Below, piece after piece: positions 4,185 to 44,900 of a stretch of DNA of 51,041 nt. The stretch lies in assembly GCA_002897115.2 (NCBI GenBank), contig BCIH01000006.1:1269202-1320242 (forward strand), written 5' to 3'. The stretch's first letter is position 1. Each line of letters begins with the position of its first letter. The position numbers and the translations under genes were made by a program. A model generated the notes under the pieces. It made no database searches and had not been told where the DNA came from. It saw only the letters and a list, made by a program, of their open reading frames with translations. The DNA is from Prototheca cutis (lineage: Eukaryota > Chlorophyta > Trebouxiophyceae > Chlorellales > Chlorellaceae).

Positions 4185-6634
4185 TCACTTTCCGCGGAGG
4201 CCGAGCAGGGTCTCAACGACGCTGGGGTCCGCGAGGGTGGAAATGTCTCCCAGCTGGTCCTCCTCCTTGGAGGCAATCTTGCGGAGGATGCGGCGCATGA
4301 TCTTGCCCGACCGCGTCTTGGGCAGCGCGGGCGCCCAGTGGATGACGTCGGGCGTGGCAATGGGACCGATGGCCTTGCGCACCTGCGCGACCAGGGCCTT
4401 GCGCACCTCCTCGCCCGGCGGGTACGTCGCGTCGCCGTAGAGCGTGACAAACGCGTAAATGACCTGGCCCTTGATGGGGTGCTCGACGGGCACGACAGCC
4501 GCCTCAGCGCACATGTGGTGGGCCACCAGCGCGCTCTCGACCTCGGCCGTGCCGATGCGGTGGCCAGACACGTTGATGACGTCGTCCACCCGGCCCAGGA
4601 TCCAGTAGTAGCCGTCCTCGTCACGGCGTGCGCCGTCGCCCGTGAAGTAGTATCCGCGGTACACGTTGTAGTACGTCTGCTCGAACCGCGCGTGGTCGCC
4701 CGCAATCGTCCGCAGCGACGACGGCCAGGAGCGCTTGATGACCAGGTAGCCCTGGCCGGGCCCCTCGATCTCCTTGCCTTGCTCGTCCAGCAGCGCGGCC
4801 TCGACGCCAAAGAAGGGCAGCGTGGCCGAGCCGGGCTTGGTGGGCACGGCACCGGGCAGCGGGGTGATCATGTGCGCGCCCGTCTCCGTCTGCCACCACG
4901 TGTCGACGATGGCGGCGCGCCGGTCGCCGACCACCTCGTTGTACCAGCGCCAGGCCTCGGGGTTGATGGGCTCGCCGACCGAGCCCAGGATGCGCAGCGT
5001 CTTGCGCGACGCGCGCTTGACGTAGTCGTCGCCCGCCGCCATGAGCGAGCGGATGGCCGTGGGCGCGGTGTAAAACAGCGTCACGCCATACTTGTCGACC
5101 ACGTCCCAGCAGCGGCCGGCGTCGGGGTAGGTGGGCACGCCCTCGAACAGCACCTGGCTCGCCGCGTGGAACAGCGGGCCATAGGTCACATACGAGTGCC
5201 CGGTGATCCAGCCGCAGTCGGCCGTGCACCAGTAGACATCCGACAGCTTGTGGTCAAACACGTACTTGAACGTCGTGCCCGAGCCCACCATGTAGCCGCC
5301 CGTGGTGTGCAGCACGCCCTTGGGCTTGCCCGTCGAGCCCGAGGTGTAGAGCTTGAAGCTGGGGTGCTCCGCGTCCACCCACTCCAGCGGGGCACTGGTG
5401 GGCTGGCCGGGGATGACGTCCTGCCACCACACGTCGCGGCCGGCCTTCATCGTGATCGCGTCGCGCGGCAGGGCAATGGCGTGGTCGTGCACCAGCACCG
5501 TCTCGACGGACGACGTGCCGGGCAGGGCCAGGGCCTCGTCGACAATCTTCTTCAGCTCGATCGGCTTTGCACCGCGCTTGACGCCCGAGCAGGTGATCAC
5601 CACCTTGGGCTTGCTGTCCTCGATGCGGCCGGCCAGCGACTCGGCCGAGAAGCCGGCAAAGACGACAGAGTGCACCGCGCCGATGCGCGCACAGGCCAGC
5701 ATGGTCGCGGGCAGCTCGGGGACCATGGGCAGGTAGATGGTGACGTCGCTGCCCTTGCCCACGCCCACGCTCAGCAGCCAGTTGGAAATTTGGCACACCT
5801 TGTCCCTGAGCTGCGAGTAGGTAACCACCTCAGACTTGTCGACGTCATTGCCCTCCCAGTAAAAGGCGACGCGGTCGCCCAGGCCAGCCTCGACGTGACG
5901 GTCCACGGCGTTGTAGCACAGGTTGGTCTGCGCGCCGATGAACCACTCGATCGACACGGGGCCCTTGCGCGTGTCAATGTTGTGCCTGGTGGCACCGAGA
6001 TTGTGTGTGTGTGGGGGGGGATGCCGTCAGGGTTTTGTCGGCCTTGTTGTAATGCGGCCATTCCTACGAGGCACACGTCGTCCACAAGCGCCAGACCTGG
6101 GGCCCAACCCGACGCCCGCTTCCCAGCACCACCACCAAATATTGAAGAAGAGCGAGCCTCCAACAAGATCAGAAAAAAAGTTTAAAAAATTCCAACAAGA
6201 AAACTCACCTCTCGATGGTGTCCCACTTCTTCTTCCAGTAAAAGTCCTCGGCGATCTTACCCCAGAAGGCCTGTTCATGGGGTGGGTGGACATGCGCCAC
6301 GTGTGCAAGGCTGTGCATCCTCTGTGCAATAAAAGCTTCCAACTACATGCAGCATGCATAGATCGAAACCAGGCCCGCAAGGGCAGCAGGAAGGCATGCG
6401 CACGTTGCTTCAAGCGAAAGCAAAAAGCTCTGGGGTTTGGAAAGCCCAAGGGCCCCACAACGAAGTGGCCTTCATCACGTACGATCTCGTCATCCCATCC
6501 CGAACCCTCACCTCGGGATCGCTCAGCGACTGAGCGTACAACTTCTTGTAATCATCGAGACTCTTGACGTGGGCGCCCTTCTGGATGTCGGGCAGCGGCT
6601 GGTAGACAGCGGGCCCGTCCCCGTTCTCAGTCAT
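4185..6634 (-). CDS. ACS: Acetyl-CoA synthetase (AMP-forming)
   Basis: Makes acetyl-CoA from acetate, ATP and CoA through an acetyl-adenylate. Three exons on the minus strand close in phase: 6634-6512 (41 codons, MTENGDGPAVYQ), 6270-6209, and 5985-4185, giving 661 residues, the family's usual length. Visible motifs are the N-terminal ACS cap (FWGKIAEDFYWKKKW), the phosphate-binding loop YTSGSTGKPKG near residue 275, WWQTETG, the hinge region YYFTGDGARRDEDGYYW, and the C-terminal SGKIMRRILRK holding the catalytic lysine that is acetylated in regulated ACS enzymes. An in-frame upstream ATG would add 15 residues (MNLSPRMRSPPP), perhaps part of a targeting peptide; location is therefore open between cytosol and plastid. 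No peroxisomal C-terminal signal is seen. Long open frames on the opposite strand are mirror artefacts of its GC-rich third positions. Confidence 0.96.
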
Positions 6635-10338: not shown

Positions 10339-13165
10339 ATGTATTGTAATTCTTCACCCTTTTGGTTTCGCCTGGCGGAGGCGAGGCGGGGCAGCACGCG
10401 GGCGCGGCGCAACTCGTTGCGACGCACGAAGAGCGGGTCTTCCTCGCAGGGCAGCGACGCGGCGAGCCAGCATGATCACGATGCTGGCTCCTCCAGCTGC
10501 GAGGAGTTTGAGGATTCCACTCAAGTCTTTCGTGAGGTTAGTATATGGAACATGCATCGAACTGACTGCGCTGGGCAATTGACTGCGCGATAGCATCGGC
10601 ATCGGGGTTTGAATCCCGGGGTGCATATGCCCATCGGCATTGGGGGTGGGAATTGGGAGGCATGGGCAGACCCCGGGATGGATGGACTGTTGGACTCTGT
10701 CCCAACCAAGCCGACGTGAGGACGTCCGCATCTTCAATCAACCTCCTTTTGGCCGCAGTTCCGGCGCATCATGCGCCAGAAGCAGGTCTCCCTAGAGACC
10801 GTGGAGGAGCAACGCGAACATCACATCCACCGGGCCCGAGAACAACTCCGATTTTGCAGGCTGCTGCTGGCCACAGCCCCGGTATGCCTTCGTGTGGACA
10901 TGCTGTTTGGGGGGGGTGCACGAGAGGGCAGGGCGATGGGTGGGTGGGTAGGCAGTTGGTGGAGTNCATGTCGCCACTTGTGCGATGGCGCTTCGGGGGG
11001 GGGGCGCCGTCGTCATGTCCTGTCCGCTTACCCACGCATAATCCAACCGCTCTACCCAGAAGATGCCCAAATTCCTGCACTCTCGACCGAGCAGGACAGC
11101 GAGTATGCATACCTGGCCCCTGACCCGTGCGAATGGGCGGCCAGCGCGCAGCTGGACGCGCAGGCAGCACTCCGTCTGCACGGAAGCTGCGAGGAAGCCA
11201 AGCAACTCAAGGTACGTGACTGGTTGGGGTTAAGAGTGTATGTCTGCGTTTGTTGGGGTTGGGCATGTGTGGGGGCGAAGCCTGCTGTCAGCGCTTTTTG
11301 GTCCCTGTCCTAGGTTGGTCGGTCCGCGATCCCCGGCCCTCCCCTTTATTGAAAACCCCTCCAAAAAAACAATGCAAACGAGCGCAGGCCGAGGCACAGG
11401 AGTTGATGGAGAGGTACGCAGCAGCGATTGCCGAGCTTAGGGCGGCGCGCAAGCGGAGCGGGCTCCAGGAACTCGTGGCCGCCGGGACCGGCAGAAAGGC
11501 ACATGACGGCTCTGACTCGGACGAGGAAGCCTCCTGCTCGCTTGCTTGTTTGCCATATGGTGTTGACGCTGTTGAAGGAGCAGCTGATGGTGCACGGACC
11601 GCGTCGTCAGTTCCCGGCCTTCTCCCCCCCTCCACAGCCGCTGCCGCCACTGCCACAGCCATGGATTCCCGGACTGCACCTGTTGCACGTGCATCAGTGC
11701 GGTCGTCAGCAAGTGCTGCAATGGCCGAGGCCGAGTGCCCGCTGTGCCTGCGGCTGCTGCACGAGCCTGTGACAACGGTTTGCGGGCACACCTTTTGCCG
11801 GACGTGCCTGTCTCGCGCGCAGGACCATTCGGCGAGTTGCCCCAGCTGCCGCGCGGCGCTGGGTCCCGGCGACATCCCCGCTGTGAGCCTGGCCCTGGCG
11901 GCCCTCCTGCGCCGCTGGTTCCCAGCCGAAGCCGCCGTGCGCGAGGCCGAGGCCGGCGAGGAGGCCGCCGCGCGGGCGGCGCGCCTGCCGCTGTTTGTCG
12001 CCGGCCAGCTCCTCCCAGGGGAGCACATGAGTCTCAACATTTTCGAGCCGCGGTGCCGGCTCATGGTGCGGCAGTGCATGCAGGGCAGCCGCAGGTTTGG
12101 CATGGTCACCCGTGTCCCCCTGCGCCAGGGTCGCATGGCCCCGCCCTCGCTCCCGGGCCTGCCCACCACTGCTGATTTGAGTCCGCTCGGTTGCGAGGTC
12201 GAGATCACCGAGTGCGTCGGGCACCCCGATGGGCGCTATGACATTCACGTTGTCGGCCGCCGCAGGTTTAAGATTGCCGGGCTCACCGACGAGGAAGGGT
12301 GAGAAGCTCTTTGGGCTTGGTGCCTGTTGGAGCTGTTTGTTGTTAGGGCTTGTGTTTTGCTGGCATATTGGATGCCCACATCTCGGAGCTCGCGTCATCT
12401 TTCACACTTTTCTCCCATCTCCCTGCCTATGGTGGTCACCATCAGCATGCTGTATACGGAGCCGGAGTGGGTGCTCGACGACCCACCGGCCATGCCGGCG
12501 CAAGAGCTCCAGGCCCTCGCCTCCGAAGTCGAGGCTGCCGCCGAGACCTGGATTGCACGCCTCCGCACCTCTGTCACGGTAAATGCGTTGTGCATTCTTT
12601 CCCCCTCTGTGCATGCATATGGCGCTGTGGTGTGCTCTGTGCGACAGCGGGGGTTGATGCGTGAAGCCTGTCTGTCCATCCATCCGTCGATGCATGTATC
12701 CATTCCGTCCATGCAGTCCCAGCCACGGCTGGCAGCGCTGTTGGACGGTGCAGACAGCAAGCCCTCTCCCGATGACGTCGAGGCGCTGTCTTTCTGGGCG
12801 GTACGCGGGCCTTTGGTTTGTGTGTGTGTCGAGCGTGGCTGGGGTGTGTGGGTATCTCGTCAACGTTTCGACCAAGAAAACACGTGCACTATGCGCCCAT
12901 GGACTGATGGCATCAGCTGCCTGCCCTGGGCTGCATGGACTGTGCAGCGACGTTCCACATCCCCAAGAAACGTCTTGTAAATCGGCGTCAACCGTGCTCC
13001 ACACCAATGAAACAGGCGGGCTTGGTGGTGCACTTGGCGGACGATCCGGCAAGGCTGCGGCTGCGCATGCTGGAGATGACACGGTCTGAGGAGCGGCTTC
13101 GGCTCTCGTGCACCATGCTGACGTCGGTCCAGCAGCGCCTGATGGGCCGGTGCTGCATCTGTTGA
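10339..13165 (+). CDS. RING finger and LON-substrate-binding domain E3 ligase (LONRF-like)
   Basis: Likely exons are 10339-10536, 10759-about 10889, 11060-11211, 11388-12298, 12446-12578, 12717-12800 and 13016-13165. All junctions close except the second, where a weak donor (C|GTGTGG) is needed to keep phase. The N-terminal part is charged and probably coiled (VEEQREHHIHRAREQLRF, AEAQELMERYAAAIAEL). A C3HC4 RING follows in exon 4: CPLCLRLLHEPVTTVCGH, then FCRTCLS and CPSCRAAL. It is followed by a LON N-terminal substrate-binding domain (LPLFVAGQLLPGEHMSLNIF, EPRCRLM, FKIAGLTDEEG, EPEWVLDD) ending in the helical SFWAAGLV / LEMTRSEERLRLS block. RING plus LON without protease domain is the LONRF arrangement, presumed ubiquitin ligases. 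The first exon is the least certain. Confidence 0.85.
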
Positions 13166-13669: not shown

Positions 13670-14215
13670 GATGGCAGCAAATTTTTCACCCTCTGCAGGG
13701 CAATAGGAAGGTGGACCACCTCAATCATGGACTACCTTCGGGGCTCCTGGTCNTGGGAAGTTAAAGGGTCCCCAGGGGTGTAATCCCCGTTGGAAAGCTG
13801 TAACCTCCTCAGACGCATGCTCATCAGCACTGCGCCCTTGGGCGCTGGAAGAGCTTCGGCCGCTCGCCGGTCTTCCGCAGGGGTACTGCACGATGTGCCT
13901 CATGTTCAGACACGCCATCAAGTCTCTGTTCCAGAGACGATGCTCGCTGTTTGGGGGCCGGCACTCCTCGTTGGTGCAGCGCAGCAGCCCGTGGCACACC
14001 ACTGTGGGCGTCTGCTCCCTGCGGTAGGGGTGTGGTTGGGCGCAACCTGTCCTGTTGCCAAGAACGAACCCAACCCATTCTCTGAGCGACGCGGCAAGGG
14101 AATGCGGTCCAACAGGGCACTTTGTTGGAAGACATGCCCTTGCTGTTGACGTGAGGATCTTCTCACAAATCTCGAGAAGAGTTCCATCATTTTCTGCTGT
14201 TAATGCAGACGCGCA
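13670..14215 (-). mobile_element. Fanzor/TnpB-like remnant, copy 1 (RuvC-III/zinc-ribbon end)
   Basis: A stretch of about 540 nt on the minus strand is closely similar, by eye, to 23755-24290 on the plus strand, so it is a dispersed repeat. Its open frame (to 13721, one N at 13753) contains VVCHGLLRCTNEEC and then LWNRDLMACLNM. A cysteine pair followed by NRDxxAxxNM is the zinc-ribbon plus last RuvC motif found at the C-terminus of TnpB and of its eukaryotic relatives, the Fanzor nucleases. The RuvC-I/II part and any start region are absent, so this is a 3' fragment and not a working gene. The Fanzor call rests on this short motif only; another transposase with a similar end is possible. Confidence 0.55.
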
Positions 14216-14310
14216 AAATTGCATTCAAAGTGGTGGGTTTGGCTCGGAGCAGGCGTTTGTGTCGTTTGAAAACCGAGCCATGCGCACAAATACCGACAGA
14301 AAATCTTGAC

Positions 14311-14325
14311 GGAAGACTTCGATTC
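14311..14325 (+). promoter_or_regulatory. Leader of permuted pre-tRNA with anticodon-pairing segment
   Basis: Just before the 3' half lies TTCGA (14318-14322), the exact complement of T33-C34-G35-A36-A37 (14411-14415). In ordinary intron-containing pre-tRNAs the anticodon pairs with the intron to present the splice sites. Here the leader would play the intron role, bringing the 5' end and the 3' trailer together for cleavage. Pairing is seen in the sequence; its use is inferred. Confidence 0.6.
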
Positions 14326-14415
14326 ATGCCGTGGGGGAACCCGCACAGGTTCGAATCCTGTAGGCCGCGACAGGAATTGCGGCTTTGGCCGAGCGGTTAA
14401 GGCGCGGCACTCGAA
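14326..14415 (+). tRNA. Circularly permuted tRNA-Ser(CGA) gene
   Basis: The 3' half comes first. A38 is at 14326, then the 3' anticodon strand TGCCG (14327-14331), a 13-nt variable arm with GGG/CCC stem (14332-14344), the T arm ACAGG-TTCGAAT-CCTGT (14345-14361), the 3' acceptor strand AGGCCGC (14362-14368) and G73 (14369). After 9 nt (14370-14378) comes the 5' half: acceptor GCGGCTT (14379-14385), TG, D arm GCC-GAGCGGTTAA-GGC (14388-14403), G26, 5' anticodon strand CGGCA (14405-14409), then C32, T33, anticodon CGA (14412-14414) and A37 (14415). Across the halves the acceptor stem forms 7 pairs (one G-U) and the anticodon stem 5 of 5. The long variable arm and the anticodon fit serine, codon UCG. 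T runs at 14425-14428 and 14431-14435 fit Pol III termination. The split falls at 37/38, the usual tRNA intron site. Confidence 0.9.
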
Positions 14416-14981
14416 TTGGTCCCCTTTTGCTTTTTGCCTGGTGCCGTTCTGATTCGCATCTCATGCAATGCGGAACAATGCCCACCGGCGGCTGCCTTGC
14501 TAGCCTGGCTGCGCTGCCGGGCGTGCATATTGGCGAGTGCTCGAGTCCCATTTGCTAGGGGGACATGCGAAGCGCAGTCACGCTCGAAAGCTTCCCTGTT
14601 GCACAGCCCAGGTAACGACGTCGACATGACGCGTACGTGTTGATCATTACAGGAACAGATGTGCCCTCTGGACTGCACACCAGCGGTCGCCGTGGGACAC
14701 CGCGTGGCTAAGGTTGTGCCGGCCCGTACAAATGGGCACAGCAATCCATCCACAACACGGCGGTCCATTTCCTCTTTCCATTGCCAGTTCATTCACACCT
14801 TCTGGTGTTTGCGATTCGAGTGGATCGCATTCAACAAGTCCATCTGATTGAACACGCGGCCGCGATTCAACAATCGGGCGATAGACCCGTTTCGAGCCCT
14901 GCCGTGTCGTGTCGGAAATCTAGGCGGGTGACGAGCCCGCGCGTGGGCACATCAGGGCGGCATTTCGTCATTTGGGCAGAC
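14416..14981. other. Intergenic after the tRNA
   Basis: Begins with the T-run terminators of the tRNA gene and ends at the start codon of the secreted protein. No other gene seen. Confidence 0.4.
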
Positions 14982-16784: not shown

Positions 16785-18167
16785 CCGCGCGATACGCCGA
16801 TCTTTCATGCATCGGGTGCTGGATCTGGGTCCTCCCCCAGGAGCCCGTTCCGACATACGCGATCCAGAGGACCCAATCTCCTGCTTCGAACTGTAGTAAT
16901 CGCACTGCCTCATTGATTTTCTATGTACACTTTCATTCCGTGATTCGAGTTCTGCGATCGAAGGGGATGGCCTCGCTGGGACACCCACAGAAACAGAGCA
17001 GGCCCACCCAACAGCCAAGATCAATGCACACACATGCGATCGAGAAACACAAATATTCAGGGTCACGGGCAATGATGTGTGCAAGTGTTCAAACGTTGTT
17101 GGCGGATCGTCCCGCCTCTTTGACACGTTTACCGGACATTCTCGGAAGGAAAGCCACCAGGCTTCCCGATCCGCGCCAGGGACTCCTATTCCGAGGACAT
17201 GTGCCTCCGTGCGCTTGAGGGAACATATAAATAGCTACATATTTTGTGGGTATCCTATTGGACGTCTCACGGCGGCGCGTCTGGGAATTCCTAGGGTCCC
17301 GACTGGGCTGCCGTAGAGGGAGCTGCCATGAAGCTGGTGGATAAGTCGGGAAGCTGGGGGTGCCAGGCAGGCAGGCAACTGCAAAGAAAAGAGGTTCAAG
17401 GTCCTCGCGACACATTCTCCTTACACAAAGTGCATTATCTTGTCGAAGAGTTCTTGCGCAGCCTCACGTTTTGGTCAACGTCACTGGAAGTGCGTCCTCA
17501 AAGAAACCACCCGGCGCAGTTGCGCACCGCGAAACTGCCAGCGTAACCCGCATTTTGTCCAGGGATCCAAGCGGCGCGACGACTGCAGTGCTTAAATAAG
17601 CGTGCAAATGAGATATGGCGTCGACTGCGTCCTTACCCTCACGTGAGTGTTCCCGTCGGGTGTAGCTGGCTTGTCGGAATGGAGCCGCTGGCCAGGTGGA
17701 GATCCTGGGAGCTAGGCGTCGTTGCCGTAATGTCCCACCGCTGAAGAGGATGCATTCCCTGATCCCAATACCGCGGTATATTTTCAAGCATTCGTTTTTC
17801 GCGAGCGGGAGATCGGGCCGAGGGGAAACCCCCCCAGGTTGGTTTCGAAGACTTTTCCAGAGTACTTCGGCCTTCCCCGTGTGCAGGCGGCCCAAGGGAG
17901 GGCCCGCCAAGGGATGGTATCCAAGCATTGCAGCTCCCTGCGGCCTGCGTTCAGGCGTACATCGGGGTCTGTGAATCCCAAGGTTTGATTGCGGGGTTTG
18001 GCTGTGGTTGAAGTGGGAGACGGTGGTGGGCTTGGGCTGGCAGGAGATCATCCGCCGCACCGCCTTTAACCATCCCTGCAGCTCCTGAACCCGAGTGCCC
18101 TGGTACTGCCCAGCTATGCGGTTGACAGGCGCACGAGCAAACACTAGTACAGACCTGACGACTGCAG
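16785..18167. other. Region without a resolved gene (3' flank and PP2C 5' part)
   Basis: Almost 1.4 kb between the secreted protein and the first sure PP2C exon. It must contain the 5' exon(s) of the PP2C gene, since that gene enters with a codon already begun, but I could not choose them with confidence. Candidate segments are 18080-18140 (LNPSALVLPSYAVDRR in one frame) and the open frame after 17328. Confidence 0.35.
17226..17233 (+). promoter_or_regulatory. Possible TATA box
   Basis: TATAAATA in an otherwise GC-rich stretch, about 100 nt before an ATG at 17328. It could drive the PP2C gene downstream. This rests on the motif and position only. Confidence 0.3.
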
Positions 18168-19323
18168 GCCACCGGGAGTACATGGAAGACCGGCACACCA
18201 TTCTGCCCGACTTCGAGCTATCCCCGCTGGCTGCCGGTCTGCCGCACCAATTTGCCGGGGTGTACGATGGCCATGCGGGCACGCGGGCCAGCGAGCATGC
18301 TGCTGCGCGGCTGCATGAGATCGTCGCCGAGCAGCCCGAGATCCAGGCCGCACCGGGGATGGGTGTGCCGACGGACCTCGCTGTGCGCGATGGGTTTGTC
18401 CGTGCATTTTTGACCCTGGACGGAGAACTGATACAGCATGGCACCGAGAATGAAGCCACGTGGGGCAGCGGGGGAACGACTGCGGTGTGCGCGCTGCGCA
18501 TCGGCGGATTCGTATACATCGCGCACGCGGGCGACTCGTGCGCGCTGCTGTGTCGGAGCGGACGCTGTCTGCGGCTGACGCAGGACCACAAGCCCGCGTC
18601 CTGTCTTCAAGAACGAGAGCGGATCGAGGGGCGTGGCGGCTGCGTGTTGCCGGCGCTGGATGCCGTGCTGCTTCCCGGCCAGACTGCTGGCGGCTGCTCA
18701 TGCCGGCTGGGAATGAGCAGGGCCCTGGGGGACGCCGAGTTCAAGACACCGGCGCGTTTGGTTGAGGCGGCGCCAGACGTTGTGCGCCTGTCGCTGCAGC
18801 CGGGCAAGGACGAGTTTATTATCCTGGCCAGGTGGGTTAGTTGGGGTGTAGACTGCGTCACGCGTGTGTCTGTTCAAGGAAAGGTCAGTAGCGTGGACTT
18901 GTGCGCATGGATNGTCATGGCCATCTGCCCATGCCTCCCCATCGCGCTCCTTCCCCTGCCAGCGACGGCGTCCTGGAAAAGATGACAGAGCGTGAGGCAG
19001 TCGACACCGTGCGATGGGCTGTTGAGGGCCGGAAGACCAGCGGTGCGTTGGGGCAATGCACGCCTTTGCAGGGGCTTCTCTGTTGAGCTGATGGAAACAG
19101 CCTTGCATGGGGTGTACGGAGGCTTCACGCCTTTGCTGTTCCGTCCGCCTTGCTTCAAGGCCACCACTGCTCCTTCCCCGCACATCATCGCACAAAACAC
19201 ATCTTCCGTTGCACTGTCTCAGATGCGGTGGCCGGAGCGGCTGCGAGCGCTCTTGTCCATCGTGCAGAACTGCTGCAGACAAGGGACAATATTACTGCAA
19301 TCATCTTCCTGCTCAGTTGGTGA
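18168..19323 (+). CDS. PP2C-type Ser/Thr protein phosphatase (5' end unresolved)
   Basis: Metal-dependent (Mg/Mn) protein phosphatase. Sure exons, all in phase, are 18168-18831, 18963-19042 and 19223-19323, about 281 residues; one or more short upstream exons are missing. The PP2C motifs are complete: HREYMEDRHT, FAGVYDGHAG, WGSGGTTAV, YIAHAGDSCALLCR, LTQDHKP, a GMSRALGD block, LASDGVLEKM (Asp rebuilt across the 18831/18963 junction) and RDNITAIIFLL. The metal-ligand aspartates in MED, DGH, SDG and DN are all present, so activity is expected. There are no membrane segments or extra domains. An N (18913) sits in the intron. The contrast with the PP2C-like gene at 28162-30005, which has lost the ligands, is notable. 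Confidence 0.9.
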
Positions 19324-21645: not shown

Positions 21646-23455
21646 ATGCCGGTGGAACTCGAGCGCGATGCGCTCTTCAGGCGCATGCGTTCAAAGCCGG
21701 AGAACAAGGTGCGGCGTCGGTGTCTTGGGCTCGGCACATGGCCCTGCCTGACGCGGGTTACTGGTATTTCGGGTCACTGGTGGCGTGAAAGCGCGGCGTG
21801 GTTTTGCTGCTGGGTTTCTATCGCTTCATGAGCATCAAGCATGTGCAGGGATAGCTCTGCAATGGGCCATCTCCGGTGGTCTAGCAGTAGGCCCCTTGGG
21901 ACAGGACTGGCACCCCTCGGCTCAACCAACCTCCGCCCTCCCCATTCCTCAACTTAAAGGTTTGCTTCGACTGCCCGGCCAAGAACCCCACCTGGGCCTC
22001 GGTCCCCTACGGCGTGCTCATCTGCCTGTCCTGCGCCGGCGTGCACCGCAGCATGGGCGTGCACGTGAGCTTTGTCCGCTCCACGACACTCGACTCGTGG
22101 ACCGAGGGCCAACTGGCGCTGATGGCCGCCGGGGGCAACGGCCGCGCACGCGCCTTCTTCAAGCAGCACGGCTGGGAGGAGATTGGTGCGGACAAGATTG
22201 AGGCCAAGTACAACTCCCGTGCTGCGCAGCTCTACCGCAAGCAGCTGGAGCGCGACGCCGCCAAGCTGTTGGACGGGGAGGACCCCAGCGCGGCTGGCGG
22301 CCCCGGCGCCAGCCCCACCGCCGCCCGCGACCCGACAGCGGACCTGTGGTCCGAGTCGTACCAGCCGCGCCACGCGCCCGCCAGCGGCGCGACCGCCGCC
22401 AAGGCTGCTACCGCGGCGTCGCCGGCCAAGCCGGCGCTCAACGGTGCCGCCGCCGCCGCACGACCGGCCACGGCCGCGCGACCTGCGGCGGCAGTGCGGC
22501 GCCCTGCGGCCGTCGGCGCCCGCCGTGTCGGCGGAAAGCTGGGCGGTGGGCTGGGCATCAAAAAGGCCGCCGCGGCCGTCGATGAGTCTGTGTTCGAGCA
22601 GGAGCCCGAGGAAGAGAAACCCGCCGCTGCTGCGGCCCCGGAAACAGCCTTTGATGAGGACGATGTCGCTGGCGCTGGCGCTGGCGGTGCCCCGGGTCCC
22701 AGCCGCTTTGACATGGATGCCCTTGAGGAACGGGCTCAGCCCGCAGCGGCCCGGGGGCAGGACGGGCATCTCAAGCTGACGTCCAGCCACGATTTCTTTG
22801 CCGATCCGTGGGGCGCCCCCGCCGCGCCTGCCTCTCCCGTCGGCCGGAGCGGCGGCGGTTGGGGAGGCAGCTCCAGCGGCGCTCGGGCTGGTGCCGGTGC
22901 CAAGCCCCCCGCGGCTGCTTCCTCCGCCAGCGCCGGTTCGTCTGCGGCGGCCTCTACCGCCGCGCGGGAACGGTTTGGTGCGGCCAAGGCCATCTCTTCG
23001 GCGGCCTACTTCAACAAGGACTCGGCGGAGGACCAACACGAGAAGCAGGCCCGCCTGATGAAGTTCTCGGTGAGTCGTGAACACCGTTGGAAAGGAGGAG
23101 CAACACTGTGTTGTCTCTTGGGGGCGGATGGTGGATATGGTGCCGTCCGACGCCAGCACCCGTTCACACATCTTATAAATGCACATTCCCAAAGCCCCTG
23201 CATACCCACTCTGCAATGCAAACGAAACAGGGTGCCGGTGCGATCTCCTCGGACGCCTACTTTGGCCGCGAGGCGGAGCGGTCGGGGGCCAGCGCGGGCT
23301 CGTCCCTCGACCTGACGGCTTCGGAGTTTGTGTCCAAGATCAGTCTGACGGCGCGGGAAGATATGGCTCAGATCAAGAGCATGGCCTCGGCTGCGGGCTC
23401 CAAGCTGAGCTCCCTGGCCCAAGGCTTCCTCCGCGACCTCCAGGGAGGCTACTGA
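21646..23455 (+). CDS. ArfGAP of the Glo3/ARFGAP2-3 type
   Basis: Stimulates GTP hydrolysis on Arf1 at COPI vesicles in Golgi-to-ER traffic. Three phase-0 exons (21646-21708, 21960-23069, 23231-23455) give 465 residues. The N-terminal zinc finger is complete: [25 protein letters not shown] (CX2C...CX2C), with the arginine finger in [14 protein letters not shown] and then TTLDSW. A long Ala/Pro-rich middle contains a short basic stretch ([16 protein letters not shown]) like the coatomer-binding region. The motif ISSAAYF recurs as ISSDAYFG in the last exon; these repeats match the Glo3 regulatory motif that separates Glo3/ARFGAP2-3 from Gcs1-type ArfGAPs. The start is chosen because [21 protein letters not shown] runs directly into the finger. 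Confidence 0.94.
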
Positions 23456-41909: not shown

Positions 41910-44900
41910 ATGCCGGCCAGCGGAGTGATGGCAGCCGGCGCGGCCTTGACAGCCGCTCTAGGCCTGGGGGCCTGGACTGCAGCGGGCGCGGCGCTGCCGC
42001 CTGCGTTTCGCACGGCGGGCCGTGCGGCGGCCGCGGCACTGGCGGCCGGCGCGGGCGTGCTGGCCGCGCGACGGATGACGGCGCTGCGCCGGCAGGCGGC
42101 GATTGTGGAGCTGGAGATGTTGCTGGCAGAACTCCAGAGCCCGGAGTCGCTAACGCGTGAGGCGGTGGAGGGCATCGAGCGGCGGGCAGGGGCGGCGTTG
42201 ATTCTGTGCGACCTGGATGGTGTGCGGCGAGTGTACGGTCGGTACCTGGAGTCGCTCGTGCCTCGCGGCGAGGGTCAGGAGATTCGTGGCGATGAGCACN
42301 TGCGTCTGGCTTCCTTCCGATCGGCGCTGGGTCTGGACGAGGAGTCCAGCGCCCCCGTGCACATNGAAGTCGGGCGGCGGCTGCTGCGAAGCCGCCTGGA
42401 AGCCGGCGATCGCCGAGGGGACGCCGAGGCACGCCGCGCTTTCCAGCGCCTGATGTACATCTCGTTCTTGCTGTTTGGCGACCGGGGGTACCTCACGCCC
42501 TGGGCCCGCGCGTTTGGCCTCACCGACGCGCAGGTCTACGTCGCCCGCCGNGATGGGGCACGGGTCCTGTTTGATGCCGCGGTCAGTGCTGTGGGAGGTT
42601 TGCCGGCTGACCGTGGTGTGCTGCGCACGCTGCGTGATGTGCAAGTGACCGTTCGTTTAGCCGACGACGAAGCCGCGGCCGCCNTGGGAGAGGCCGCNCG
42701 GGCTACGATGGAGAAGCAACTCGACGCCGCCCTGAAGGCCGCCGCCACCACCACCACCCTTGGGGGTGCTTCCCGCCGCGGCGCGGATGTCGTCGCAGAA
42801 CTGGAAGCGGCGTTGACCTTCAACCGTGACCTTGCCGCGCTGGCAGGCCAGGAGGGCATCGTCCCCGGGGTCGGACCCGTCACNGTCGCTGGATCCCCTT
42901 GGGCTGCAGTGGAAGGCCGCCACCGGGGTCTCCGCGACCTCTTTCGTGCCTTTGTCGAGCAGCGCTTGGCGCGCGAAAATCACACCTGGGATGCGGGTTG
43001 TGAGCGCGACACCGNTGACCTGGCACAACTGCTTGGCCTGCCACAAAAGGATGCGACGATCGTCGAGTCTGAGGCCAAGGAGGCCGCGTACCGGCGGCGG
43101 TTGCGTGCCGCGGTGGCCGGCGGGAAGCTCGATGCCGCACCGAGCCCCGCGGCGTTGTTGAGCGAGTTGGTCGATGCCGTGGGCTTTGACCCCAGCGCCG
43201 CTGCGGCTCTGCACGCGTCACTGTACCGGCAAAAGCTGCAGGCCCTGCTGGCATCGCANGACCCGCCCGCNCTGTCGGACGCCGACGAGCGAGAGCTGGC
43301 CCGGCTCCAGCGCCTGCTGTGCGTGCCGCGGNAGGAGCGCGACGCCGCCCGGGCGGCGCTCTGCGGTGCNCCCTTCCGGGCCGTCGTCGAGCGCAGCCTC
43401 GACGCCGGAGCGGAGAACTTTGCCGGGGACGATCGCCGCCGCGTCGGTGCTGCCGCGCGCGGCATGCGCATGGAACCCGCTGACGCGCAGTGTGTGCTCG
43501 CCGAGGCGGGGCGCCGCCGCCTGCTGGGGTTTGTCGCCGAAGCACGCAAGCAAAAGGAGCCGGTCGACGCCGCCAAGGAGCTCAAGGCCATGGTCACATT
43601 CTCTACTGTTGTTCTGGCCCCCCTCGTCGACGAACTCCGGGTTCGCATAGCAGGGTTTCTGTTTCTGCTGTGTGTGTTTTTTTAATTTCTGCGTGTGGTG
43701 TTCTCGAGCCATGAATTGCCTCCCTGGAACCATTTGAATGCCTCTTCCACTAACAGAACCCTCCCCCACACCCAACTCTGGCCAGACGGAGGAGGAGCGC
43801 AAGGCAGTGCGGGAGGAGGCGGAGCAAGAGGCTGCGATGCAGGCCATGGTCGCTCGCATGCAGCGCGAGGCGGCGCGGCAGGGCCGGCCCGCCGCCGCCG
43901 AAGACGAGGAAGAAAGCGATGCAGAGCGTGCACGCTTGTCGGGCACGGGGGACGACGAGATGCCCGGGGCACGGCCGGCGCTGGCCCCCGCCAGCCAGCT
44001 GCCGCAGCGGGCCGTGACCCTCAAGACGGACCTGGAACTGCGGGAGCGCCTCAACCTGTACCGCACTTTCCTCCTGCATGCCAACGCGGGCGAAGAATCC
44101 ACGGGGCCCATGGGTGCCACCATGACCCTCGGTGCGTGGGTGGGTGGGCGGAGGGGACGGCTCCGTGTCGTTGAGGCCCCCTGCCTCCCTGCTTGGTCGC
44201 CCATGGACTTGGCCGAATTTCCAACCCTAACCCTAAGACCGAATAACTGCAGACGACGGCGAGACCGAGATGCGGAGACTGGCGCAGCTTGGGGACGTGC
44301 TGGGCTTGACCCCGGCAGACATGGCCGGCGTGCACTCTGAGCTGGCGGAGCAGGCTTTCAGGGCACAGGTTCAGGCGGCCGCCGGCGAGTCGGGCGCGGG
44401 CCTGACGCCCGAGCGGGCGGCGTCGCTGCGCAGCACTGCGGCACGCATGGGCCTGGCGCCCGACCGTGCTGAGACGGTCCTCCGGGGCTTCGAGGACCGC
44501 AAGCTCCTGGCGGGTCTGCAGGCCGCAAAGAAAGCGGGAAAACTCACGGCCAGAATGCTGCTCGATCTCGCGGACCAAGGCGTGGACGTCGTCGGGCTGA
44601 CGGCGGCCGACGCGCGGTGGCAGCTCTACCGCGCACACATCTTAACGTCACTGACCGACGGCCAGGGTGCTTACGATGTCCAAGACATGACCGTGGCTGT
44701 GCCGACCGCTCTGGGCCTGGACACCGCCAAGGCGGCCAAGATGGCGGCCGATCTCGCGGGCGAGCGCCGTCGGACCACGCTCGTCCAGGCAGTGTCATTC
44801 CTGCGCCAGGGCAAGCGCACGGAATGCGCGGGTGCCCTCAACAACCTCGTAGCTGTCCAAGCCGCCGTGGCCGCCGGGACCAAGGCTCCCCAGCCGCCGC

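Follow-up and report, generated by a model that had tools for sequence, protein, structure and literature searches.

A permuted tRNA-Ser(CGA) locus in the nuclear genome of the green alga Prototheca cutis, one of many of its kind

The tRNA-Ser(CGA) locus and its surroundings

The stretch of DNA considered here, hereafter the window, comprises 51,041 nucleotides of green algal nuclear DNA, namely positions 1269202-1320242 of contig 6 in the 19.9 Mb, 23-contig assembly of Prototheca cutis. Its forward strand carries reading frames for a protein with RING and LON substrate-binding domains (11250-12302), a PP2C phosphatase (18095-18985), an ArfGAP (22014-23315) and Tic110 (41910-43685; Pfam E 2.1e-139), and its reverse strand one for acetyl-CoA synthetase (4185-5957). 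The best relative of the latter is ACS1 of Auxenochlorella protothecoides x symbiontica with 87% identity, followed by a protein of Chlorella sorokiniana with 76%. Between the coding regions lies a gene for tRNA-Ser(CGA) whose 3' half is encoded upstream of its 5' half on the same strand, as read from the sequence and as reported by a dedicated permuted-tRNA finder (Table 1).

Table 1. Features of the permuted tRNA-Ser(CGA) locus, in window coordinates
Feature	Position	Strand	Basis or remark
Whole tRNA-Ser(CGA) locus	14326-14415	+	sequence, permuted-tRNA finder
Leader segment UCGAUUC, directly 5' of the 3' half	14319..14325	+	7 contiguous pairs with 14413-14419
3' half, tRNA positions 38-73	14326..14369	+	sequence, finder, ARAGORN on joined halves
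Anticodon 3' strand TGCCG, tRNA positions 39-43	14327-14331	+	directly after A38 (14326)
Variable arm, 13 nt	14332-14344	+	
T arm ACAGG-TTCGAAT-CCTGT	14345-14361	+	
Acceptor 3' strand AGGCCGC	14362-14368	+	
Discriminator G	14369	+	
Spacer (intervening sequence), 9 nt	14370..14378	+	sequence, finder
5' half, tRNA positions 1-37	14379..14415	+	sequence, finder, ARAGORN on joined halves
Acceptor 5' strand GCGGCTT, then TG	14379-14385	+	
D arm GCCGAGCGGTTAAGGC	14388-14403	+	
Anticodon 5' strand CGGCA	14405-14409	+	loop CT-CGA-A
Anticodon CGA	14412-14414	+	
GAAUUGG, end of 5' half and start of trailer; partner of leader segment	14413..14419	+	pairing, minimum-energy fold
Pol III terminator-like T-runs	14425..14435 (TTTT 14425-14428, TTTTT 14431-14435)	+	sequence

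The pairing of the halves encompasses 7/7 positions of the acceptor stem (one of them G-U), 5/5 of the T stem, 5/5 of the anticodon stem and 3/3 of the D stem, in which a fourth pair would be G.A; the finder scores the acceptor, T and anticodon pairs as intact, together with the tRNA consensus bases. The 5' half stops at position 37 and the 3' half starts at position 38, which is the site of ordinary eukaryotic tRNA introns. When joined in silico the halves yield a complete cloverleaf that ARAGORN names tRNA-Ser(CGA). T-runs follow the 5' half only, with none between the halves, and no clear TATA-like box is seen upstream. The 7-bp helix between the leader segment and its partner is present in the minimum-energy fold and, when scored without strict bulge sizes, could serve at the cut as the central helix of a relaxed bulge-helix-bulge, while the predicted fold of the whole precursor is no more stable than that of its shuffles (z -0.97; 34/200 as good). 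A preliminary description of this DNA had the coordinates, cut site, spacer and pairings all correct, as judged by the sequence and the finder.

That description had also predicted that standard tRNA finders would miss the locus, and this holds in its native order: on the window ARAGORN calls no tRNA gene and Rfam gives no match at the gathering threshold. Even with E values up to 10, Rfam recovers from 14200-14550 a T-arm fragment of the tRNA family alone, scoring 14 bits where gathering requires 29. The permuted-tRNA search that it had called for, run over both strands of the window, returned this locus as its single match; the finder is restricted to cuts at 37/38, and permutations at other positions would therefore escape it. 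No collinear tRNA emerged from the window when this script was run with introns of up to 129 nt allowed, and an intron-containing collinear reading of the locus does not apply, as the 5' half does not precede the 3' half. As a control for chance we used 6032 dinucleotide-preserving shuffles of the window, amounting to 616 Mb over both strands, in which no match had perfect pairing throughout the acceptor, T and anticodon stems, and six passed the finder's looser threshold. Algal genomes of such a type look tRNA-poor to standard finders.

Permuted and collinear tRNA loci across the genome

A partial survey of the genome with the 37/38-limited finder yielded 35 permuted loci covering 25 isoacceptors, all cut at 37/38 and spread over many contigs. 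Thus, the locus is not the lone oddity as which it had first been presented. Twenty isoacceptors are represented by a single permuted locus, namely Ser(CGA), Ser(TGA), Gln(CTG), Gln(TTG), Gly(CCC), Gly(TCC), Pro(TGG), Leu(AAG), Leu(TAA), Arg(TCT), Arg(CCG), Arg(TCG), Ile(TAT), Val(TAC), Cys(GCA), Trp(CCA), Thr(CGT), Ala(TGC), Tyr(GTA) and His(GTG), and the others by several: Gly(GCC) and Glu(CTC) by four each, Ala(AGC) by three, and Ile(AAT) and Ala(CGC) by two each. The acceptor stem has 7 pairs in 34/35 loci and 6 in one, the T stem 5 pairs in all 35, and the anticodon stem 5 pairs in 33/35 and 4 in two. Spacers range from 9 to 80 nt with a median of 12, the commonest length being exactly 9 nt (10/35).

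Most of these loci emerged from three T-arm patterns, which favour neither the permuted nor the collinear architecture and whose every site was inspected: GGTTCGANTCC (43 sites), GGTTCGANCCC (54) and GGTTCAANYCC (88). They gave 31 permuted loci (17, 6 and 8, respectively) and, by manual tally, 14 collinear tRNA genes (9, 5 and 0), the remaining sites not being recognizable tRNAs. The permuted share is hence 31/45 in the T-arm samples and 35/53 among all tRNA loci found, and the permuted kind seems to be the majority in this genome. The other four permuted loci, for Trp, Thr(CGT), Tyr and Gln(CTG), were found by A-box patterns or by luck; for the pattern AGCTCAGNNGG 100 of 224 sites were listed and about a third of those 100 inspected, and for two longer A-box patterns (9 and 6 sites) most but not all sites were fetched. 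An Rfam family search of the genome gave 17 tRNA loci, all collinear, among the 63 of 246 candidates that were scored. The 35 loci derive from 39 finder rows after merging of alternative registers, with L027 (4 rows) and L033 (2 rows) counted once each.

Several candidates were left out of this count: L170, a finder match in a GT repeat with a T stem of 4/5; L130 and L105, with weak matches of 15.7 and 13.2 bits to the model R1 described below; and L112, a degenerate permuted-like locus with 22.6 bits. L112 (G000:C2:1547070-1547310, bases ~65-155, + strand) retains intact acceptor and anticodon stems, with an anticodon that would read GGC, and about 5-6 nt are missing between the anticodon stem and the acceptor (a short T stem or a lost variable loop); its sequence suggests a possible permuted pseudogene.

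The four permuted Glu(CTC) loci (L022, L036, L043 and L052) lie on four different contigs and share a leader stretch of ~35 nt preceding the 3' half, in which CCGAGG could pair with CCTCG of the trailer; this shared leader may be functional, or the copies may be recent. On the minus strand at L009 the permuted Gln(CTG) gene has two tandem collinear Leu(CAG) genes as neighbours at a distance of ~1.2 kb. Single N bases are scattered through the assembly, including within genes (as X residues in the Tic110 translation) and in the D arm of the Glu(CTC) locus L052, and some tRNA genes may consequently be hidden or broken in pattern searches.

The collinear tRNAs found in the partial survey comprise 18 loci of 11 isoacceptors: Leu(CAG) and Asp with three each, Lys(CTT), Arg(ACG) and Pro(AGG) with two each, and Phe, Arg(CCT), Met(CAT), Pro(CGG), Leu(CAA) and Leu(TAG) with one each; 8/18 contain an anticodon-loop intron. 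L044, which ARAGORN reads as an intron-containing Phe(AAA), was counted as Leu(TAG), the reading of the finder, which sees a class II arm and an intron of 59 nt there; the ARAGORN reading was set aside. L047 / L150 (G000:C12:216306 region), unrecognized by the finder, is collinear and tRNA-like, its T arm being perfect and followed downstream by T-runs but its anticodon arm poor; it is possibly a pseudogene or an unusual tRNA. Among the 53 loci of the partial survey no isoacceptor was found in both the permuted and the collinear form, and the architecture hence looks fixed isoacceptor by isoacceptor. The survey found no gene for Asn, Lys(TTT), Glu(TTC), Ser(AGA), Ser(GCT), Val(AAC), Val(CAC), elongator Met, Thr(AGT) or Thr(TGT); being partial, it does not imply their absence from the genome. 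The suggestion that the genome might appear to lack a normal tRNA-Ser(CGA) agrees with the search made for one, which covered the A-box 17-mer and the T-arm pattern GGTTCGANTCC, with genes bearing other T arms outside it: the 17-mer occurs once in the genome, and none of the 43 GGTTCGANTCC sites is a collinear tRNA-Ser.

Signs of function, predicted processing and rival readings

We then considered features bearing on function over the permuted set as a whole. After joining of the 5' and 3' halves, ARAGORN called 35/35 loci with the expected isotype and anticodon, as against 0/35 in native order; because joined halves from different isoacceptors were also called in 101/600 cases, the joining test is lenient on its own, although the contrast is still clear. 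In 35/35 loci a TTTT starts 5-20 nt after the 5' half, against a background, in 40-nt stretches, of 7% of positions in the window and 11% in the flanks, and TTTT occurs within the gene body in one locus of the 35, in the spacer of Arg(TCG). Across 25 representatives the leader-trailer duplex energy averages -7.4 kcal/mol versus -5.2 for swapped partners (0/20000 permutations as good). The contiguous leader-trailer helix separates weakly, with 5.44 versus 4.91 for swapped partners (194/20000 permutations as good), and in a few cases, Gly(CCC) and Glu(CTC) among them, the helix has no more than 4-5 pairs. In Gly(GCC) a change on both sides, from T-G to A-T between the two copies in L050, leaves the helix intact. 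In 29% of 24 representatives, versus 3% of control stretches, an approximate TATAAA (at most 1 mismatch) lies between -60 and -26, which points to an upstream TATA-like box in some permuted genes, Ser(CGA) not being among them.

Furthermore, a model (R1) was built from the 12-sequence alignment A2 with the spacer and variable arm masked. It matched all 17 permuted loci given to it from outside the training set with E values of 9.3e-12 or better, several of these being near copies of training members; L176, L184, L187, L195, L198 and L202 were left out of the scoring. Collinear tRNA loci match R1 weakly, reaching up to 24.6 bits, and scores below ~28 are accordingly not taken as evidence.

Based on the cloverleaf, the T-run after the 5' half only, the potential leader-trailer pairing and the 34 siblings, all of which support the original reading of a permutation at 37/38 (type II), we propose with a probability of about 0.93 that the Ser(CGA) locus is a working circularly permuted nuclear tRNA gene of a green alga that is chlorellalean and a near relative of Auxenochlorella. 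RNA polymerase III would produce one transcript with the order leader, 3' half, spacer, 5' half and trailer, stopping at the T-run. This precursor would fold with its acceptor strands joined via the 9-nt spacer as a loop, and its open end would lie at the anticodon loop, so that leader and trailer would occupy the places of the two ends of an ordinary intron. The splicing endonuclease would then cut on either side of the anticodon-loop junction, at 37/38, and a ligase, for which RtcB is the candidate found, would join 14415 to 14326 to give a circle. Excision of the spacer by RNase P and tRNase Z would open the circle at the acceptor end, and CCA addition would yield a tRNA-Ser(CGA) that reads UCG codons. 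While the order of the halves rests on the anatomy of the locus, we infer these enzymatic steps because passages of a review describe such a pathway for C. merolae and green algae (PMC3978253). The genome encodes two tRNA_int_endo genes for subunits of the tRNA-splicing endonuclease and an RtcB in four exon-like pieces covering profile positions 13-426. The fungal-type tRNA ligase profile PF08302 has no match in the genome and is equally silent in the control genomes, and nothing is concluded from it on a ligase of this type.

An alternative is that the locus is a non-functional rearranged pseudogene, the remnant of a tRNA-Ser(CGA) tandem that lost its outer halves and is no longer processed. 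Permuted genes are thought to arise by just such tandem duplication and loss, according to passages of the review (PMC3978253), and the genome has at least one degenerate permuted-like copy, L112. We nevertheless consider this very unlikely for Ser(CGA), given its intact stem pairs and consensus bases and the terminator after its 5' half; moreover, with its A-box 17-mer unique in the genome, a pseudogene would leave the cell without a cognate for UCG, barring an unfound gene. It is extremely improbable that the halves are transcribed separately and joined in trans, as in the split tRNAs of Nanoarchaeum: they are indeed separate modules, and pairing of leader and trailer would be equally usable by trans-splicing, but they do not form separate loci, lying on one strand with no T-run in the short gap between them, and the set as a whole agrees in its short spacers and in T-runs that follow the 5' half in every locus and are absent from the gene body in 34/35. 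An assembly artefact or chance arrangement is scarcely credible, for despite the N bases of the assembly the same cut recurs in 35 loci on many contigs, the shuffles gave no match with perfect stems, and permuted tRNAs are independently reported in main-text passages on Auxenochlorella (PMC12636532).

Relation to known permuted tRNAs and the scale of the set

The preliminary description knew of no earlier account of this locus, and within the literature searched that stands for the locus itself. It does not hold for the kind: a permuted Ser(CGA) with a 37/38 cut is already printed for Ostreococcus, Micromonas and the Bigelowiella nucleomorph (Maruyama et al. 2010, tabulated in PMC3978253), permuted Ser genes appear in passages on the Amorphochlora nucleomorph (PMC4494063), and permuted tRNA genes have been found in Auxenochlorella after its tRNAscan-SE set proved incomplete (PMC12636532, as its main text states with reference to Supplementary Fig. 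S1). The kind is thus already known, and the Ser(CGA) locus is an added example of trebouxiophyte type. In the open-licence literature, searched by title and the start of the abstract, we found no further report of permuted nuclear tRNAs in trebouxiophytes.

The tabulated prasinophyte and Bigelowiella genes share with the Prototheca cutis gene the isoacceptor, the 37/38 cut and the lack of a listed intron, they have a relaxed junction motif of the kind that may also form in it, and their spacers of 5-28 bp are comparably short to its 9. In contrast, the same table lists 3-6 permuted genes per prasinophyte genome against at least 35 in Prototheca cutis, and both the spacer length and the lineage differ, that of Prototheca cutis being Chlorellales-like by one protein. 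The closer parallel by relationship is Auxenochlorella UTEX 250-A, a close relative by its acetyl-CoA synthetase in which permuted genes likewise lay behind an incomplete standard-finder set; the finding has probably been partly reported already in this sister alga, although the main-text passages of that paper give neither a number nor a list. Auxenochlorella is a laboratory alga in which homologous recombination works (PMC12636532). Cyanidioschyzon merolae (Soma et al. 2007, via PMC3978253) resembles Prototheca cutis in the reversed halves, and in it the circular intermediate has been shown; as summarized in the review, its cuts lie at several positions and its permuted genes are 11 of 43 nuclear tRNA genes, whereas in Prototheca cutis all 35 loci detected by a finder limited to 37/38 are cut there and make up 35 of the 53 loci found.

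In passages of the same 2014 review, 34 permuted genes were counted in seven organisms, with at most 11 per genome (PMC3978253); the loci found here in one genome exceed that count for all organisms. The whole set matters more than the single Ser(CGA) gene. For Trp, Cys, Tyr and His the one locus found is permuted in each case, and it looks as though gene copies multiply in the permuted form, as with the four loci each of Gly(GCC) and Glu(CTC). In light of these observations we lean, by a little over even odds, towards the view that the permuted form is the default for tRNA genes in this lineage, with most isoacceptors encoded only by genes permuted at 37/38 and most cytosolic translation drawing on tRNAs that pass through circular intermediates. 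If this is so, the circular route would be the main tRNA supply rather than a curiosity, and two matters would become testable: why permuted genes spread, be it through intron-linked tandem duplication, as a defence against insertion or by neutral drift, and in what way Pol III deals with a B box upstream of the A box.
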